DNA of 64,000 nucleotides from an uncultured Coriobacteriaceae bacterium (GTDB lineage: Bacteria > Actinomycetota > Coriobacteriia > Coriobacteriales > Atopobiaceae): the NCBI GenBank assembly GCA_902793195.1, contig CADBCS010000013.1, positions 1-64,000 on the forward strand, read 5' to 3'. The notes under the pieces were generated by a model, which was given only the letters and a program-made list of their open reading frames with translations, did no database searches and was not told the DNA's origin. Shown here piece by piece: positions 50,537 to 60,505 of the stretch (position 1 is its first letter; the number at the start of each line of letters is the position of its first letter). The position numbers and the translations under genes are program-made.

Positions 50537-51583
50537 ATGGAGTTGATTGTGTTCTCATCGCTTGAGGGCAAAGCGACGGTTGACGACTTCCTTCCCTGGA
50601 CTGACCTCACCGTCGAGCGGGCTACGTCTGTCCTGCCAGAGGCCATTCGTGACAACTACGGGGCAACCTATCAGTGGTTCATGGACCACAGCGGGACCGT
50701 GGGGTCCAGGATGTGGGGAGAGAGGATTCCAGGGGTCGACGAAGCCTTCTCGATCTCAGCCATGCGGGGGATTCACGTGCCTGCGGGATCTTGCTATGCG
50801 GTCAGCGTTACCGTCAAGCGGGGTAGCATCTACAGCGGCTCGGACCAGCCCCTCGTGTACCTGCCAGACGGCACATGGCTTTTGGAGTACGCAGCGCACC
50901 GAAACAACACGGGCGGCATCACGACGAGCCGTTGGAATAAAGGGCTGTTGAGGTGCATGGAGGACGGCATTCCCGTTGGCGTATTCTTGGAGCGGAGGCA
51001 GAGCAGGTACGAGCGCTTCTTGGCGTTCGTAGAGGAGTACCACCCTGGCAGAGAGGTATTCACGCTTCACGGGCCAGTTACCGAGACGTCCATGTTCCGA
51101 TTCTCGTCAAACAAACCTGCTGACGGGCCCATAATGGCAACGCTCGAGTACAACGGAGATGATTTTGCCGCATTTGAGGAAGACCGTCGTAGGTACGTCT
51201 CGGCGCGAAGGGTCGAGCGGGAAGGCCAAGCCCAATTCCGAAAGGCGCTCATGGAGGCGTATGACGGACGTTGCGCCTGCACGGGCTGCAACGTAAAAGA
51301 GACGCTCCAAGCGGCTCACATCATCAACTACCGCGGCAACCAGTCAAACGTCGTCATAAACGGAATCCTCCTAAGGGCCGATATGCACCTCCTCTACGAC
51401 AGCTCGCTTATCTCAGTTGATCCTGACACATACAGGATATGCACAAGCATACGGCTGCGCGGTACAGGGTACGTGCGATTCGAATCAGAGGAACTGATCC
51501 TGCCCCGCGACAAGAGCCTATATCCAAGCGAGAAGTGCCTTGCAGTCCATTATGACAAGTTTCTCAGGCTTGAGGCCGCGTGA
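50537..51583 (+). CDS. HNH endonuclease with N-terminal recognition-like domain
   Basis: Probable restriction-type nuclease of 348 residues. The C-terminal HNH_2 domain (about 230-310) has CACTGCNVKETLQAAHIINY (HNH histidine and zinc-like Cys), NVVINGILLRADMHLLYD. The N-terminal half (1-190) has AMRGIHVPAGSCYAVSVTVK and DGTWLLEYAAHRNNTGGITT, with SRWNKGLLRCMEDGIPVGVF, resembling the base-recognition half of McrA-type, modified-DNA-dependent enzymes; that is inference. No methyltransferase adjoins it, consistent with a type IV role. The ribosome site before the ATG is poor. It stands at the edge of a group of broken defence genes. Confidence 0.8.
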   Translation: MELIVFSSLEGKATVDDFLPWTDLTVERATSVLPEAIRDNYGATYQWFMDHSGTVGSRMWGERIPGVDEAFSISAMRGIHVPAGSCYAVSVTVKRGSIYSGSDQPLVYLPDGTWLLEYAAHRNNTGGITTSRWNKGLLRCMEDGIPVGVFLERRQSRYERFLAFVEEYHPGREVFTLHGPVTETSMFRFSSNKPADGPIMATLEYNGDDFAAFEEDRRRYVSARRVEREGQAQFRKALMEAYDGRCACTGCNVKETLQAAHIINYRGNQSNVVINGILLRADMHLLYDSSLISVDPDTYRICTSIRLRGTGYVRFESEELILPRDKSLYPSEKCLAVHYDKFLRLEAA

Positions 51584-52779: not shown

Positions 52780-52905
52780 GATGGGGCCTTTCCTCCTGTT
52801 GTCACGTCAAATCCAAGTGCACATGCATGCTAACACGCGCGTGGGACAATGATGGGCTGCCAGTGCGACGGGGCGGCGCGGATGGGTCTTGGCGCGCGCC
52901 TCCCG

Positions 52906-53151
52906 TCAGCAGTCCCGGTCGGGCGCGCCGACCACGCGCTTGGCCTCCACGAACCACGCGCGGCGGCGGTGGTCGTCGTACTAGAGGTGGGTGCTCGTGC
53001 CTCCCACGCGCGCGGCGTGGCGCATCCCCGCGCCGCCGGCCCTGGGGCTGTGCGCCTGGCGCCTGTCGGTGACCTTTTCGACGTGGAAGCGCCTCCCATC
53101 GACCCAGCGAACCTCCAGCGGGGTGACGAGGTCGTCGGCGGTTGTGAGCGT
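52906..53151 (-). pseudogene. Remnant of a small conserved protein, with an in-frame amber codon
   Basis: Starts directly after the stop of the TPR/OB gene and reads LVTPLEVRWVDGRRFHVEKV, RAGGAGMRHAARVGGTSTHL, TAG (52981-52983), then YDDHRRAWFVEAKRVV. This resembles a small beta-rich family with 'W-DGR-F-V--V-D-R-A-----GG-G-R----V----T-L----' and a final 'WFVE'. A start codon and ribosome site are missing. It may be dead, or be the rest of a fifth gene of the operon. Confidence 0.55.
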
Positions 53152-55014
53152 CTACGCTTGCCCGCCGCGCGGTTTTACGATTCCGACGCCTGTTGGCAAC
53201 GATGCGTCATCGGTCGCGTCCGCGTCGATGCGGTCGACGATCTGGTCTACAGCCCAGCTCCATTCCCTTTTCTTCTTATTCCATGATTTCACCGCAGTGC
53301 CCCTTATTGCATCGCCATCTTTGAGGCCGCATTCCACGACCAGCCTTGGTGGAATGAAGAGGTTGTCAGAAACGAACCCGAATCCGCCACGTGCGATTCT
53401 TACCACGCCTTCGACCTCTTTTTGCCCATCTCCGGGTGACGGGGGAGTGACCTCGATGATTCTTGGCTCACGCGTCCACTCGCCATCCTTCGCTCCCTTC
53501 CTCTTCCTAAACGACGCCACGGTCTGCCCCGTGACTCTAGCAAGCGCGACAAGGCTGTGCTTTTTAACGAGCCGCTCGGGAATCCACACGTCGTCTGATT
53601 TGGTATGGACGAAACCGTACGATTTCACAGCCTCAAAAACTCCCTCGAAGCCTTTTACGAACACGCATTCCATCCTCTTGTTGTCTGACGGGACGGCATT
53701 GCCATACATGCGCAACCCGTTCTTGTCGAGCGAAGCGGAGTAAACCCTGCCAGGCTCGTAGTTCTTCGCAAGATTGGCGTCGTGCAAGCACAGCCTCTCC
53801 GCCCTTTCCAAGGTGTAGATTGGCGACTGGAAGGTGACTATGCCCGCGAGCCCCTTTTCCGGCGCCGTCCATTCGAGGTAGAAGTCCACCTTCGGCACGT
53901 ATGCCTCTAGGGTGGCTTCCGCATTGGCGCCGAGAGAGCGGTATTTGGGCGAGTTGTCTTCACTTGTCGCGGAACTCGAGTACCATGGCTCGTGCTGCGC
54001 TCTTAGCACTACCGGCGATTGCGACCAGCCGTTCTCGTATCTGCATCTTGCAACCGTGTCCGCCTCGAGTTTCGCGGCGGCGTAGTCGCCCATCTGGGCG
54101 AACAGATTTATGGCCGCCTCATGGTACGAAAGAGCGTACTTGGGGTCATTCGATAGCTGCAGGGCGCGGAATATGCAGGCGGCGTATAGCTCGGGCCGCT
54201 CCGGCAGGAACGTCTCGCCGTACGTCGCCCATGCGTACGCTTCTTTCGACTTCCGCAGCACGAAGGGAGCCAAGACGTCGCGCGCCTCGGCGTTCCTCCC
54301 CATTGCGATGAGCAGCTTTCCCAGCTTGTATTCGAGCCACTTCCAGCGGGCGCACTCCTGCCTTGAGGTCAGCGGCCTTATCGCAAGGACTGCGTCTTCC
54401 TGTGCTGCAGTCGGGAATGCCGGGTTGCCATCACGGTTCTTTTTCACCATGCAGTCGAGGTACCCGTTCGCCATCGACTCGGCGAGGCCGGGTATCTTCC
54501 TGCCCTGATACTCCTCGTCGATATAGTCTTCGTGCGAGAACGAGCTGAAGCCATACCATCTGATGGCGTCGACCAGGTAGAGCGGCGCCTCGTCGAAGCC
54601 CTTCAGGAACGCCTTCATAAGGATGCCGTTGCGAAACCTGGCGTCAATGGCGCTCAGGTCGACAGTGGCCTCGAACACCTTCCGGAGGTCTTCGACCCTC
54701 TTCCTTTTGACGAGGTCCCATGACACCGAGCCAACTGACCTGACGAGGTTCTCGTAGAACATGTCGTTCTCGCGGGGGTCGAAACCGTATCGGGCGATGA
54801 CCCTGAGGCTTTGCGCATATGCCTCGCCGTTCCCGAAATACTGGCTGCCATTGGCCTTGTATCTCTTAAGGCAGTCGTAGAGTACCCATGTCAGCTCGCC
54901 GGCAATGTACTTGTTCCCAGGCTCGGACCGATACGCCTCGACAGCGAGGCGATAGGCACCTTGGAGGTTTCCGCTCTTCCTCATCTCGCGAATCTGTTGT
55001 GATACGTATGCCAA
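53152..55014 (-). CDS. TPR-like protein with C-terminal cold-shock/OB-fold domains, last gene of the four-gene operon
   Basis: 620-residue cytoplasmic protein. The N-terminal 350 residues are helical repeats resembling tetratricopeptide repeats (LQGAYRLAVEAYRSEPGNKY, LGKLLIAMGRNAEARDVLAP, AAINLFAQMGDYAAAKLEAD). The C-terminal part has OB-fold/CSD-like units: GIVTFQSPIYTLERAERLCL (weak), FEAVKSYGFVHTKSDDVWIP with a basic tail (VASFRKRKGAKDG), and GVVRIARGGFGFVSDNLFIP, like the RNA-binding CSD of RNase R and cold-shock proteins. RNA or single-strand DNA binding is inferred. The ATG follows the helicase stop by 19 bases. TPR-plus-OB proteins occur in nucleic-acid conflict systems, but this one is not identified as a named family. 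Confidence 0.75.
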   Translation of the reverse strand: MAYVSQQIREMRKSGNLQGAYRLAVEAYRSEPGNKYIAGELTWVLYDCLKRYKANGSQYFGNGEAYAQSLRVIARYGFDPRENDMFYENLVRSVGSVSWDLVKRKRVEDLRKVFEATVDLSAIDARFRNGILMKAFLKGFDEAPLYLVDAIRWYGFSSFSHEDYIDEEYQGRKIPGLAESMANGYLDCMVKKNRDGNPAFPTAAQEDAVLAIRPLTSRQECARWKWLEYKLGKLLIAMGRNAEARDVLAPFVLRKSKEAYAWATYGETFLPERPELYAACIFRALQLSNDPKYALSYHEAAINLFAQMGDYAAAKLEADTVARCRYENGWSQSPVVLRAQHEPWYSSSATSEDNSPKYRSLGANAEATLEAYVPKVDFYLEWTAPEKGLAGIVTFQSPIYTLERAERLCLHDANLAKNYEPGRVYSASLDKNGLRMYGNAVPSDNKRMECVFVKGFEGVFEAVKSYGFVHTKSDDVWIPERLVKKHSLVALARVTGQTVASFRKRKGAKDGEWTREPRIIEVTPPSPGDGQKEVEGVVRIARGGFGFVSDNLFIPPRLVVECGLKDGDAIRGTAVKSWNKKKREWSWAVDQIVDRIDADATDDASLPTGVGIVKPRGGQA

Positions 55015-55033
55015 GATATCTCTCCAAAATGCG

Positions 55034-57952
55034 CTAATCGTTGCCTAGGCGGTAGTAGGCTTTGACCATGCTGACCGCCTCCCAATACTCTGGCTCCTGG
55101 CCGCACAGCAGCTTGAAGCCGCTAATCGCGCCGCTCTTCTTGTGGTCCACGCGCACCGTGAACGACTCGCCGCCCGCCTCGAGGCGCAGCACGTCGCGGT
55201 ATTCCGACGAGGATTCAACCCGAACGGCATAGCCGGGCAGGACCTTATCCTGGATGAACGAATAGAGCCAGTCGATGCCGCTGGACTCGCTTGCCAAGTC
55301 CCGTGACGCGGCCTGCTCCACCGACTTCCTGAAGTCCGAGAAGAGGTCCTTGTCGCCCGTCGCGAGCCTCGGAGGCTTGACCTTTGCGTCGCCGCCATAG
55401 TCGAAGATCACCTTCGCGACCGACCCGCCGCGCTCGATCTCGAAGATCTCCTGGTAGTTTGCGGACTTGCTCGAGGCCACGCTCGCGCCTGGAGGCAGCG
55501 AAGCCTGCACGAGCTCGTTTATGTCGGAAGACACGTTCTCCCGTGTCGAGGCGAGGGTCGAGGCGAGGATGGAGGGCCTCTTTCGCATCGCTGTTGCGCC
55601 TTCCTCAGCCTTGCCGAAGTCGGTCTTCTCGAACGGGGATATTGGGACCCAGCGCACAAGGTTGACGCGCTCCTGGGCCCTGCTTATGCCCGTGTACAAG
55701 AATCTCAGGTAGCCCTCGTTGGTCCTGCCTCCGTCTGTCCTCGGGGAGAACGTGACCTCGTTGAACGTGTAGGACATCGACTTGTGGACGGTCATGCACC
55801 AGCCGTACCTTATCCTGGCGGCGTTCACCCATCTCGAGTACTCCGTGTCGCCCGAAAGCAGCGATCTTTGCATCTCGGCGCGATATCGCCTCTCATATAC
55901 CGTGAGGAAGCGCGCGTCGTCTTTGTCCATGGGCCTGCCGTTCTTGTTCAGCCGGTAGTCGCCTTTGTCCATCATCTCCGCGTACTGTGGGCTGCTCTCG
56001 AAGGGGTACTCTGACGCCGCGGCGTCCATCAACGCCTTGAGGTGTATCTGCAGCGCCGCTTCTTGCCGGAAGTCGAGCTTGGGGTCGTCTGACTCTAGAA
56101 GCTCCTCGATGTAGTAGATCTCGTACTCTTCGCCCAGCCGCGAGGACTCGAGCCTTACGGTCGCGGGGACGAGCGTCAGGACGACCGGTGTATCCGAATG
56201 GGGTATGCGCTCCGACAGCACGATCCGCGAGTTTGACGACCCGCCTAGGCTCGTTATGGTCGCGAACTCGCCGGTGTTTATCCTGCGCGGCTCCTGGTCC
56301 CCGAATTGGGGGACGAATCCCTGGTCGGCCTTCGTGGAGTCGCTCGGTGGAGCCGTGACCTGGTTGTCGAAGATGACGACATCACCAACTGCGCATCGGA
56401 TTCCGCTGCCCGTGATCCTCCGCTTTATGTATCCGTTCAGTCCCTGAGACTGAGCATTGGTGTACGAAAGCACCTTGTGCCTGCGCCAGTTTTCCGACGC
56501 GTCCCTCAGGAGCTGCGCCTCATCCTGTGGCTCGCAGATGCGGACCTGCTCGTTATGCTCAAGGACCAGGTTCGTCATCCTGCCGGTTCGTATCGCATTT
56601 GCGATATCGAGGCATGCCGCCTGGATGCCATTGGGGTTCGCGGTGTCCGGGAGCTCGATCTCCTCGGTCGCTATGCTGCCGCGATACCAGTCTGGATTCA
56701 GGCAGGAATCGGACCACGAACCGAAACTGAGCTCGTACTTGTCGCCCACGAAGACGACCTTGTTGCCGCTGTCCTTGTCTATCCCGAGGTGGCTCAAGAG
56801 GTCGCTGAGCAGCCTGCCCGATCCGAACTTGAGCATCTCGTCTTCCCTGAGCGCGTCGGTCACCATCTGCGCCTCGCACACGATGAAGACGCTCTTGCCT
56901 TCCTCCTCGGGAGCCTCTGCTAGGTCCTCGAACGGGCTCTCGTTCACGAGGTCGGCCAGCGGTATAAGCTGGGCTCCGTTTTCCTTGACCTTTGTCGCGG
57001 AGAAGTCGAAGAGGGCGGAATAGAGGCTCTCGACCTCGTCGACGGAGGAAAGAAGGTTGGCGATGACCCTGTTCGACAGGCCAAATATGCGGGCAGATGA
57101 GAAGCCGGTCTCCAACGCCACGCTTCTGATGAGCGGCACCAGCGAGGTCTTTCCCGAGCCTGTCGTTCCGCTGACGATCATTACGGGGGAATCGCCATCG
57201 AAGAACTCCCTCAGGCGGTCTTCGTAGGGCGTTGCGGGAGCGGCCTCGACTGGCTCGGCCGCCTCTTGCGTCACCATGCCTTCGGTAGTGCGCTCGTACC
57301 TCGAAATGCCGAGCGACTTGGGAGTGACGCTGAGGTCGTAGTCCGTTGCCTGGAAGACCTTCTTGTTGAAGTAGCCAATGAACTTAGGCTCCAGCAGGCC
57401 GGCGTCGTCGCGGCCGGCGCTGACGATGTCGAACAGCTTTTCCAGGAACGTGTCCGCATCGGCGATGTGGAAGTAAGGACGGTATCTTCCCGGAATGGAA
57501 CCCCGCACCTCGACGGGTTGCTGGAAGCAAACCAGCGTCGAGATGTGGTGGGGGTCGAACGTGCTGAGGTTCCTGCAAGTCAGCTCAAGGATCTTCATCA
57601 GCCTGTCGCGCTGCAGGCCGGTCTGGTAGAAGGGGTTCGGGCTGCTTCCGCCCTTCACCTGCAGGCCGCTGTCCATCATCCACGAGCCCCTGCGGAACTC
57701 GCCCTCATCGGGGAGCAGAAGCCGTCCACTGTAGTCCTTGAAATCAATGATGGTCAGCGTCTTCGACGTTATGAGCAGCGCGTCGATTTGCAGCCTGTCG
57801 TTCACCAAGCAGGTCGGCATGCCTAGCAGGCAAGCGCGGATTCCCTTCTTGTCGAAATAGGCTTTTACAGACTTGGCGAAATACCTAAAGAACTCGTTCT
57901 CGTGGGCCTTGTCTGCCTGTCCGTATTTCACCACAGCACCGTCATCGAACAT
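55034..57952 (-). CDS. NERD-domain SF1 helicase, third gene of the operon
   Basis: 972 residues. The N-terminal NERD nuclease-like domain (about 15-190) has NDRLQIDALLITSKTLTIID and FKDYSGRL, fitting the D-x(n)-D/E-x-K pattern. A RecD/UvrD-like helicase (about 245-800) has Walker A MIVSGTTGSGKTSLVPLIRS, a DE-poor motif II in VFIVCEAQMV, VVFVGDKYELSFGSW (motif III region), and motifs V/VI in CMTVHKSMSYTFNEVTFSPR and FLYTGISRAQERVNLV. A C-terminal region (about 820-972) is unassigned and contains a DUF-like end (VRVDHKKSGAISGFKLLCG). The Walker B Asp-Glu is CE here, so hydrolysis may be atypical. It probably unwinds and perhaps cuts nucleic acid. It starts 45 bases after the upstream gene. Confidence 0.82.
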   Translation of the reverse strand: MFDDGAVVKYGQADKAHENEFFRYFAKSVKAYFDKKGIRACLLGMPTCLVNDRLQIDALLITSKTLTIIDFKDYSGRLLLPDEGEFRRGSWMMDSGLQVKGGSSPNPFYQTGLQRDRLMKILELTCRNLSTFDPHHISTLVCFQQPVEVRGSIPGRYRPYFHIADADTFLEKLFDIVSAGRDDAGLLEPKFIGYFNKKVFQATDYDLSVTPKSLGISRYERTTEGMVTQEAAEPVEAAPATPYEDRLREFFDGDSPVMIVSGTTGSGKTSLVPLIRSVALETGFSSARIFGLSNRVIANLLSSVDEVESLYSALFDFSATKVKENGAQLIPLADLVNESPFEDLAEAPEEEGKSVFIVCEAQMVTDALREDEMLKFGSGRLLSDLLSHLGIDKDSGNKVVFVGDKYELSFGSWSDSCLNPDWYRGSIATEEIELPDTANPNGIQAACLDIANAIRTGRMTNLVLEHNEQVRICEPQDEAQLLRDASENWRRHKVLSYTNAQSQGLNGYIKRRITGSGIRCAVGDVVIFDNQVTAPPSDSTKADQGFVPQFGDQEPRRINTGEFATITSLGGSSNSRIVLSERIPHSDTPVVLTLVPATVRLESSRLGEEYEIYYIEELLESDDPKLDFRQEAALQIHLKALMDAAASEYPFESSPQYAEMMDKGDYRLNKNGRPMDKDDARFLTVYERRYRAEMQRSLLSGDTEYSRWVNAARIRYGWCMTVHKSMSYTFNEVTFSPRTDGGRTNEGYLRFLYTGISRAQERVNLVRWVPISPFEKTDFGKAEEGATAMRKRPSILASTLASTRENVSSDINELVQASLPPGASVASSKSANYQEIFEIERGGSVAKVIFDYGGDAKVKPPRLATGDKDLFSDFRKSVEQAASRDLASESSGIDWLYSFIQDKVLPGYAVRVESSSEYRDVLRLEAGGESFTVRVDHKKSGAISGFKLLCGQEPEYWEAVSMVKAYYRLGND

Positions 57953-57997
57953 AAGAACTCCTATGGTCGCATTCCGTCCATACTCCTCCGCACATAC

Positions 57998-59527
57998 TCA
58001 CTCCGATTCTGCCACTGCCGAAAGGGGGGCGAACCTGCTAGCCCCTTTCAGGTTGGCGAGCTCCTGCTGCAGAGCCCATATCCTCTCGTCGATCGAGCGC
58101 TCGTGGCGCACTGTCTGTTCCATGACCTCGTCGCTGAGAATGGGGACCGGGAGGCTCGCGAGGGTTGCCTTCGACAGCATCTTGCCCCCGTTGTGCAGCC
58201 AGGCCCTCGCATATAACCCGCTCAGCCAGCATGCGAGGTAGTCCCTGCTGATATCCGAATGGAGGCGGATCACGAACACGCTGTTGCCGATCAGGGTCGG
58301 TCGTACGGCGCGGTACGTGGCGTGCTCCTTGCTGTTCCTCGACACGAGCAGCACCTCGCCGTCGTGGCTGTCGACGATGTAGCGCCCCTGGCCCTTCGGC
58401 ATCGAGCCGAGCACGGTCGGCCAGACATTGCCGTCCCTGAAGCTCATGCCGTTGACGTAGTACAGGTCGTCGTCTTTTGCGGAGGCCCGGGGGTCCGAGG
58501 CGATGCGGTCGGCCTGCGCGAAGGCCTCCGCGGGGAAGGGCGTGTTCAGGCCGAGCGTCGACCACGCCTCCCTCGCAGCTTCCAGGGAGGCCTCTTCGGC
58601 CCTGCTCCGCAGCTCCTCCCTGACGTCGAGGTTCTTCTCGCTCAGCGTCGTGCCCCGGCTGATTCTCGAGGCAAGCTCGCCGAGCGTCGTCTCCTTAAGC
58701 ACCCTCACGCCGGACCGGACCACGCTGGGGGTTATGCAGCCGCAGTTGACGGCGGCGGCCAACGTCGTTGCCTCGAACTCCCAGGGGTCGTCTGGGTCGC
58801 TGAGGTCTTCCAGGAGGAATGCCCCGGTCGACTTTCCGCGTGCCAGCACGACGTACCCGCCCGGCAGCTCCGTGGCGCTGACGAAGCCTTTGGTGTCGTA
58901 CAGGTCCTCGACTCCGTGTGACTGCGGGAACGGGGCCACGAACGGTATGTCCAGAATCGACGCGTCCTCGCTGAGGTACAGCTCCGTGGCTCCCCGGCAG
59001 TCGGCCGGCGCGTATATGACGGCGCCCGTCGCCCCCTCGGTGTTGAGCATGTCGATCCAGTGCTTGTTGTACAGCGGCCACTCGGTCGCGGGCTGGTCGT
59101 CGGTGACGTGCTGCGTCGTGACGAGCAGCTTGAAGGGGAGGGCGGGCGTGGAGTAGGTGAGGCCCTTGAAGGCGCCGTATCGGCCCGCTAGCGCATCGAC
59201 CGTCTCGCCGAAGGTCTCCCTGAACGCGGCCCAGAAGGCGTCGAGCATCCCCTCGGACGGCTCGTCGCCTCCGAACCGGGGCGGGACGAGCCAGACCTGC
59301 CCCGCCCCGCCCTCGAGCGCGTGCTCCGCATACGCCAGGCACGTCGTCTCGCAGACCAGGGCGTCGCCCTCCCCGAGGCCGACGCGACGGTCTATGGCGT
59401 CGAGCGACGCGCCCGTCAGCTCGACCTGCCAGGAAGCTTTCCCCAGCCATTCGGATCGACGCCTTGCCGCGAACTCCGCGTAGCTCTGACCCTCCGCGCT
59501 GTTTCGTCCCATGTCCTGCCCTTCCAT
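57998..59527 (-). CDS. Restriction-S/TRD-like protein without a methylase core, second gene of the operon
   Basis: 509 residues. The N-terminal 300 residues are unassigned: LGEGDALVCETTCLAYAEHA, GGAGQVWLVPPRFGGDEPSE. The C-terminal 140 residues resemble target-recognition halves of type I S-subunits and IIG enzymes: GRYIVDSHDGEVLLVSRNSK, GNSVFVIRLHSDISRDYLAC, LSKATLASLPVPILSDEVME, then a coiled-coil-like helix ERSIDERIWALQQELANLKG. No N6-adenine methylase motif (NPPF/NPPY with a SAM loop) is seen, and no HsdM/HsdR gene is present. It may give DNA-sequence recognition to the helicase. The start MEGQDMG is preferred (GAGGA upstream); MGRNS is possible. Confidence 0.65.
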   Translation of the reverse strand: MEGQDMGRNSAEGQSYAEFAARRRSEWLGKASWQVELTGASLDAIDRRVGLGEGDALVCETTCLAYAEHALEGGAGQVWLVPPRFGGDEPSEGMLDAFWAAFRETFGETVDALAGRYGAFKGLTYSTPALPFKLLVTTQHVTDDQPATEWPLYNKHWIDMLNTEGATGAVIYAPADCRGATELYLSEDASILDIPFVAPFPQSHGVEDLYDTKGFVSATELPGGYVVLARGKSTGAFLLEDLSDPDDPWEFEATTLAAAVNCGCITPSVVRSGVRVLKETTLGELASRISRGTTLSEKNLDVREELRSRAEEASLEAAREAWSTLGLNTPFPAEAFAQADRIASDPRASAKDDDLYYVNGMSFRDGNVWPTVLGSMPKGQGRYIVDSHDGEVLLVSRNSKEHATYRAVRPTLIGNSVFVIRLHSDISRDYLACWLSGLYARAWLHNGGKMLSKATLASLPVPILSDEVMEQTVRHERSIDERIWALQQELANLKGASRFAPLSAVAESE

Positions 59528-59576
59528 AGTGTCCTCGATTCCCGCTTCGGTCTCATTCCGCCTGCCGGCCTGGGGC

Positions 59577-60050
59577 CTAGGCCGCCAGCTCGGCCGGCGC
59601 CAGCCTGACTCCCGTGCAGCTGAACGCCAGGACTCGTGCGAGCTGCCGCGCGCGGGCGTCCACCGTGACCCTGACGCCCAACGACCTGAGCCGTGCGGCC
59701 TGCCTCGCGAAAAGCCCGTCCCCCGAGACGATGACCACCTCGCCGAACCGGTCCTCGACGTTCTCGTTGGAGAGGACGCCCTCGAGCGCGAGGTCCGCGC
59801 CGTCGTGGCCCTCCTTGTGCACGAGCCTCGCACCATCCCATGAGCCGGCGGGGAAGAGGTTGTTCTTGTGGCTCACCCCGATGACGGTGAGGTCGTTCAG
59901 CCCCGGCAGGTAGTCCCTCTCGATCCTGCTCCTCACCAGCATGCAGGACTCCCCGTCGATCCTTCCGGACCCGACCGCGATCTCGATGTCCACCACGAAC
60001 AGCCTCCGTGCCGACCTGTCGCTCTTCCTGACCTCAATCCGCCTGTTCAT
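59577..60050 (-). CDS. NYN-domain (PIN-like) nuclease, first gene of the operon
   Basis: 157 residues with the NYN/LabA pattern: VVDIEIAVGSGRIDGE, an acidic GADLALEGVL region, then VVIVSGDGLFARQAARLRSL and VRVTVDARAR (third strand). The aspartates in VDIE, GAD and SGDG are the expected metal-binding set of PIN-fold RNases. RNA (perhaps tRNA) cleavage is known for the family; a defence or regulatory role is inferred. It is followed by the S-like gene after 49 bases. Promoter and operator are clear upstream. Confidence 0.72.
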   Translation of the reverse strand: MNRRIEVRKSDRSARRLFVVDIEIAVGSGRIDGESCMLVRSRIERDYLPGLNDLTVIGVSHKNNLFPAGSWDGARLVHKEGHDGADLALEGVLSNENVEDRFGEVVIVSGDGLFARQAARLRSLGVRVTVDARARQLARVLAFSCTGVRLAPAELAA

Positions 60051-60068
60051 TCTCTTCGCCTCTCATTC

Positions 60069-60121
60069 TTGGATAGATGGTATCCAAACTCTCTAATTGC
60101 AGTCTAAAGGAGTCTTGGATA
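60069..60121. promoter_or_regulatory. Operator of the four-gene system
   Basis: TTGGATA-GATGG-TATCCAA, a perfect 7+7 inverted repeat at 60069-60087 just after the expected transcription start, and a further half-site TTGGATA at 60115-60121 between -35 and -10. ATTCTTGG (60065) and CCAAGAAT (60130) form an outer pair. No regulator gene adjoins. Confidence 0.7.
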
Positions 60122-60129
60122 ACTGTCAA
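60101..60129 (-). promoter_or_regulatory. Promoter of the four-gene system
   Basis: On the minus strand TTGACA, 17-base spacer, TAGACT. It drives the NYN gene and, by spacing, the three following genes. Confidence 0.7.
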
Positions 60130-60374
60130 CCAAGAATTTGAAAACAGATTGACAGAGCTTTGGCGAGTGCGTGACTTTGGGGTTCGGCGTTGCAAAATAG
60201 ACGGCTCCTGGGTGGTGTCGCTGCATGGGCAGGCAACGCAGGGACATGGGATAGAACATCAAGTATTGTCTTAACCTGACGGTTAACGTGCATGGCGCAA
60301 TCGAGCGCAAGCCTGTCAATTCGCCCCGCTCTTTTGGTCCATCTGGATTGGCGGTGGAACAATTTGGTCCACAT
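60130..60374. other. Intergenic stretch between the operon and the TPP locus
   Basis: No gene is seen. It holds a TTAACC-TGAC-GGTTAA palindrome (60271-60286) and TTTGGTCCA-type direct repeats (near 60332, 60363 and overlapping the next promoter), whose role is unknown. Confidence 0.5.
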
Positions 60375-60403
60375 TTGGTCCACCCCAGCAGTCGTGCTAC
60401 AAT
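60375..60403 (+). promoter_or_regulatory. Promoter of the thiamine-precursor transporter genes
   Basis: TTGGTC, 17-base spacer, TACAAT, about 12 bases before the riboswitch. Confidence 0.6.
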
Positions 60404-60414
60404 CGGATTTGCAA

Positions 60415-60505
60415 AAGGGGAGCTAGGAGCATATGGCCTGGCTGAGAGGAGCGACCAAATCGCTCGACCCAAGAACCTGATCTGGGTAATGCCAGCGTAG
60501 GGACC
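60415..60505 (+). promoter_or_regulatory. TPP riboswitch (THI box)
   Basis: Contains the two conserved pieces GCTGAGAG (60441-60448) and CCTGATCTGGGTAATGCC with AGCGTAGGGA (60476-60503). Between them GAGCGA/TCGCTC forms the variable P3 stem. A GGGACC/GGTCCC hairpin overlapping the 3' end (60500-60527) is the likely switching element; it has no U-run, so control may be on translation start. Confidence 0.92.

Follow-up and report, generated by a model that had tools for sequence, protein, structure and literature searches.

How do four closely spaced genes in a 64,000-nucleotide stretch of DNA from an uncultured gut Coriobacteriaceae bacterium (hereafter the window) belong together, if they do? 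They encode a NYN-family RNase, a protein resembling the specificity subunit of type I restriction systems (the S-like protein), a helicase with a NERD nuclease domain and a TPR protein, and a preliminary description read them as one undescribed four-gene system with a single promoter and a dedicated operator. The four minus-strand open reading frames are present with the intergenic gaps claimed (49, 45 and 19 nt; Table 1), the domain calls (NYN, NERD, TRD/S-type, and TPR plus OB) are correct, and a scan of positions 52800–60450 revealed no second promoter-like site on the operon strand. Purifying selection acts on each of the four, with dN/dS values against a second species (G321) of 0.07–0.25: 0.25 for the NYN gene, 0.23 for the S-like gene, 0.07 and 0.12 for two parts of the helicase gene, and 0.11 for the TPR gene.

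Table 1. Features of the operon, in window positions.
Feature	Position	Strand	Details
TPR gene, PDC-M16B	53152–55014	minus	620 aa; TTG start; TPR/DUF7017 + S1/CSD-TOTE
Helicase gene, PDC-M16A	55034–57952	minus	972 aa; NERD + SF1 helicase + tandem TBP-like repeats
Two TBP-like repeats (TBP-TOTE)	55052–55540	minus	Pfam; model pLDDT 74.5
SF1 helicase core	55643–57217	minus	Walker A GTTGSGKT; Walker B CEAQ
NERD nuclease domain	57524–57805	minus	Pfam NERD 1.3e-6; QID...DFK motif present
S-like gene	57998–59527 (alternative start 59512)	minus	Probable MTase-fold domain + single TRD + C-terminal helix
TRD + C-terminal helix	58001–58690	minus	PADLOC specificity models; aa 301–360 hypervariable between operator classes
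Probable MTase-fold N-terminal domain	58826–59455	minus	aa 20–229 of the 504-aa form; no NPPF/Y or Gly-rich motif
NYN-family RNase gene	59577–60050	minus	157 aa
Operator 2, TTGGATACCATCTATCCAA	60069–60087	minus	19-bp palindrome; between −10 box and NYN start
Promoter TTGACA-17-TAGACT	60101–60129	minus	−35/−10 scan
Operator 1, TTGGTTGACAGTTATCCAA	60115–60133	minus	19-bp palindrome; overlaps −35 box

The neighbourhood had been described as a region of broken defence genes, which is right in part: fragments there match DUF4143, DUF6339 and, weakly, DUF6788, and they flank an HNH_2 gene (50537–51583) that appears intact. The NYN promoter is immediately preceded by a divergently oriented thiamine-type ABC transporter operon with its TPP riboswitch (Rfam RF00059; 60406–60522). 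A search of six other congeneric species did not find the window's flanking genes, those upstream of the thiamine operon, at the equivalent place, so no empty site can be defined.

The distal half of the operon has been catalogued before. The helicase and the TPR protein match PDC-M16A (8.8e-66, aa 16–947) and PDC-M16B (3.8e-69), a candidate pair listed in PADLOC-DB 2.0.0, and M16B is the next gene after M16A, 19 nt away; the claim of an undescribed system thus stands for the NYN/S-like core, which had no name, and falls for this pair. The QID...DFK motif of the NERD domain is kept in four of four helicase homologues aligned. At the C terminus, TBP-TOTE was found in all four homologues (best 5.6e-11) and, in the window helicase taken alone, at 3.8e-4, under Pfam's cut-off. 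A predicted model of this region (pLDDT 74.5) contains two α/β repeats, the first of which resembles the N-terminal part of RnlA (Z 8.4, 84 residues, 2.6 Å), an RNase toxin and anti-T4 factor; RnlA is among the fold matches of the model and TBP itself is absent from them. The TPR protein matches DUF7017 (3.3e-34) and S1CSD-TOTE-2 (3.9e-27), with a sub-threshold match to TPR_19 (4.5e-4). PMC12458937, citing Aravind, Iyer and Burroughs (2022), gives TPR, OB, TBP and Effector as the defining parts of TOTE conflict systems. The pair has a TPR protein with an OB (S1/CSD) domain, a TBP-like domain and a predicted effector (NERD), and the window locus thereby puts PDC-M16, a listed yet uncharacterised candidate, in the TOTE class. 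Literature searches on PDC-M16 returned nothing, and those on TOTE gave passing mentions only.

The Cys-Glu that the preliminary description noted at the Walker B position of the helicase is real. A second species also reads CE, on which ground a sequencing error was rejected, and three further homologues read YE; every sequenced helicase of this Coriobacteriia clade, five in all (CE in two, YE in three), lacks the Asp, and three of the five have also lost the Walker A Thr. Plasmid relatives of M16A retain DEAS and GKT. Because the Walker B Asp is missing, motor activity of M16A is doubtful; the helicase part may act weakly or in a regulatory role, alongside an intact NERD motif.

Are the four genes one obligatory set? 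A genome scan and family search recovered the NYN + S-like core in six Coriobacteriia species, a small set with several loci at contig ends, and four types of partner stand behind it. These are the NERD-helicase and TPR pair (the window and G321), a 765-aa Schlafen-group-3-like helicase (G316; weak Pfam match, 1.2e-3), a 720-aa UvrD helicase (G353), and a 649-aa protein with no family match (G293 and G313). G321 is therefore a second species with the full set, there spread over two contigs, one ending at helicase residue 255 and the other starting at residue 269, whose adjacency we infer, and the NYN + S pair occurs without the NERD-helicase in the four other genomes. The helicase + TPR pair is likewise found apart from NYN/S, in three Coriobacteriia genomes (G297, G215 and G252) whose helicases are 52–53% identical to that of the window; a related helicase with a TPR partner is carried by plasmids from several phyla, in Escherichia, Acinetobacter, Shewanella, Sulfurospirillum, Chryseobacterium, Hymenobacter and Rhodothermus. 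On the Shewanella plasmid the M16 pair is embedded in a type I restriction–modification (RM) operon, between hsdS and hsdR. Co-occurrence of the four families is thus borne out in G321, but each pair also occurs without the other, which makes them two recombinable modules.

Several details accompany these loci. The 649-aa protein (L033 3530–5479, also in L034) has a possible C-terminal coiled coil, and the S-like gene of G313 (L034 699–2145) is split across two frames by a frameshift or an assembly error. The gene order on the Shewanella plasmid (L055 1042–8398) is hsdM (two overlapping frames), hsdS, M16A, M16B, HrgA and hsdR.

That the two modules are also found apart would fit a chance arrangement, in which a TOTE pair was inserted behind an unrelated NYN–S operon and is expressed by read-through. 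We consider this highly improbable: all four genes stand in order in two species with gaps of 18–49 nt, purifying selection extends across them, and several unrelated partners occupy the equivalent position at operonic spacing. The reading we prefer, with confidence a little short of even, is a defence-type operon of two independent modules, a self-regulated NYN/S-like core and a TOTE-type M16A/B pair.

Within the core, the window NYN protein matches Pfam NYN below threshold (8.5e-4); a 46%-identical homologue passes (2.8e-6), and the alignment reveals that the acidic (D/E) site residues are retained. The VDIEN motif reads VDIEI in the window, and its Asn is kept in the five other core NYN proteins. 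More distant NYN relatives are the first genes of two type I RM operons (L027 and L028), and others neighbour an ISP-like RM gene (L029) or the Wadjet gene jetD (L026); in L029 (6283–8387), two NYN genes adjoin a 1415-aa protein with ResIII and Eco57I/N6-methylase parts. The literature search on NYN together with type I restriction gave no result.

The S-like protein had been said to lack a methylase. Catalytic motifs are indeed missing, as the NPPF/Y motif and the Gly-rich SAM loop are absent from all five S-like sequences read from the alignment; the window protein matched no Pfam family, methylases included, and its homologues likewise gave no methylase match. A methyltransferase fold, on the other hand, is probably present at the N terminus. 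Foldseek ranks class I methyltransferases highest for this part (E 6.7e-4, probability 1.00); VIA-align, over residues 20–229, lists methyltransferases in essentially every row, the top rows at Z about 8–9. The assignment is probable and unproven because part of residues 20–229 is at low pLDDT; full-length AlphaFold2 prediction with four S-like homologues gave a mean pLDDT of 43.7, with the N terminus alone usable. Kinship with HsdM specifically is not established, since comparing S-like and HsdM profiles gave no significant match. PADLOC specificity models match the C terminus weakly but repeatedly, Specificity_I from 1.8e-3 (window) to 3.7e-5 and mad5 from 4.4e-5 (window) to 1.7e-6, and the low-confidence S-like model (mean pLDDT 43.7) gave no structural confirmation of a TRD fold. 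No S-like protein was found in viral contigs, plasmids or phages. An orphan HsdS serving an unlinked HsdM was rejected, as the assembly contains no strong type I HsdM match, and neither the operon nor its flanks contain HsdR.

These features bear on whether the operon restricts DNA without methylation. Such a complex would use the S-like protein in place of HsdM/S to bring a motor and nuclease to DNA sites, with M16A in the role of HsdR, and three of the four partner types are indeed SF1 motors, M16A carrying a nuclease as well; the Shewanella pair, between hsdS and hsdR, is in keeping with this. A dead enzyme, however, cannot protect by methylation the copies of its site in the host, which exist in the assembly, and because host sites would be left unprotected, site-directed restriction by the S-like protein and the helicase becomes less likely. 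Since, moreover, M16A lacks the Walker B Asp and a motor domain is not seen in one of the partner types, we regard this alternative as improbable.

A function for the S-like protein closer to home is suggested by the promoter. The dedicated operator claimed for the operon is real and larger than described, consisting of two 19-bp palindromes in an arrangement that none of 20,000 shuffles reached. Adjacent, paired and palindromic matches to TTGGN9ATCCAA occur in the assembly at the window locus only; the five other matches are scattered, single and non-palindromic. The promoter is equivalently placed in the other five core loci, and at all six loci two or three TTGG...CCAA palindromes, equal in length within a locus, sit at the promoter: 19/19 bp in the window, 19/19/19 in both G316 and G321, 18/18/18 in G353, and 28/28 in both G293 and G313 (mononucleotide shuffles matched each arrangement at a frequency of 5e-5 or less). 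Palindrome length follows the S-like clade; it does not follow the partner, nor clearly the NYN protein. Operators of 19 bp are common to the window, G321 and G316, the last of which has a different partner. S-like proteins are 71–75% identical within operator classes and 49–55% between them, whereas NYN identity does not separate the classes (G316 and G353, 82% with different operators; the window and G321, 76% with the same). Within the recognition domain, S-like residues 301–360 are only 13–23% identical between classes, with conserved stretches on either side.

The simplest reading of this correlation, across just three operator classes, is that the S-like protein binds the operators. A half-HsdS with one TRD is expected to dimerise on a palindrome, as established for truncated HsdS. 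An unlinked repressor could also co-vary with operators by descent when there are three classes only. The operator evidence points first to self-regulation by the S-like protein, ahead of its guiding the helicase to DNA as had been proposed.

Self-regulation is also expected if the NYN protein is a toxin and the S-like protein its antitoxin and autorepressor, together a toxin–antitoxin-like module that guards or stabilises the downstream gene while the TOTE pair works independently. The two-gene core stays constant while partners change, its tandem palindromes are autorepressor-like, and NYN relatives beside RM systems are reminiscent of PrrC, which accompanies a type I system. Antitoxins, however, are usually small, and the S-like protein has about 500 aa with a recognition domain; we find this account doubtful, if worth keeping in view.

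Returning to the two-module operon that we prefer, we envisage the following course. At rest, S-like homodimers would occupy the tandem palindromes over and after their own promoter and hold expression low, the protein acting as both repressor and sensor of the operon. Phage takeover would release the operon, whether because other DNA competes, the S-like protein is lost or repression fails. The NERD + SF1 + TBP-like protein, guided by its TPR–S1/CSD nucleic-acid-binding partner, would then cut DNA via NERD, and the induced NYN RNase, as a second arm, would arrest growth by cutting RNA. All of these steps, operator binding by the S-like protein, the trigger, the targets of the nucleases and any effect on phage included, are proposals. 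In other species the core would control a Schlafen-type helicase, a UvrD helicase or the 649-aa protein, and so be a reusable control unit, and the S-like protein would control, and perhaps license, whichever effector follows. We tentatively go a step further, to a possibility that we hold with distinctly less than even confidence: that a dead methyltransferase-specificity autorepressor and sensor, with a NYN RNase, forms a plug-in platform for interchangeable motor or nuclease effectors, its TRD and operators co-evolving. Such a core with swappable partners was unmatched in the libraries and literature searched, which is weak evidence, subscription literature lying mostly outside the search. 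Should the S-like protein prove to bind its own operators, recognition domains of the restriction type would have been co-opted as sensors coupled to transcription, and a single core could serve unrelated effectors; this would explain part exchange in modular defence operons, and the series of 19, 18 and 28 bp allows TRD sequence to be matched to DNA target.

Among known systems, the closest to the distal half is PDC-M16, both of whose models are matched over most of their length and in the same gene order; the models include no NYN or S-like protein, whereas the window has the NYN–S core ahead and has lost the Walker B Asp. Relative to TOTE systems, the pair has the TPR + S1/CSD-TOTE protein, the TBP-TOTE repeats and a nuclease/helicase effector, but its TBP part is fused to the NERD–SF1 protein and a NYN + dead methylase–S core is attached. 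TALON, found largely in Chloroflexota (PMC12458937), shares the NERD nuclease, TPR–CSD and TBP parts and appears to differ in its YprA-type helicase: the window motor looks to be of the RecD/UvrD_C_2-type SF1 kind, with UvrD_C_2/RecD-type Pfam matches and no YprA-type match. The likeness to type I RM lies in a single TRD resembling half an HsdS, in a partner with motor plus nuclease, and in the NYN relatives and the M16 pair each found inside type I operons; the window differs in having no HsdR and a probable methyltransferase fold without catalytic motifs, in an assembly without a strong HsdM. Finally, in the RptR-controlled type I RM island (PMC12255303) a defence promoter is repressed, as we propose here, through repeated palindromic-core sites, but RptR is a small separate repressor and the window operon encodes none.
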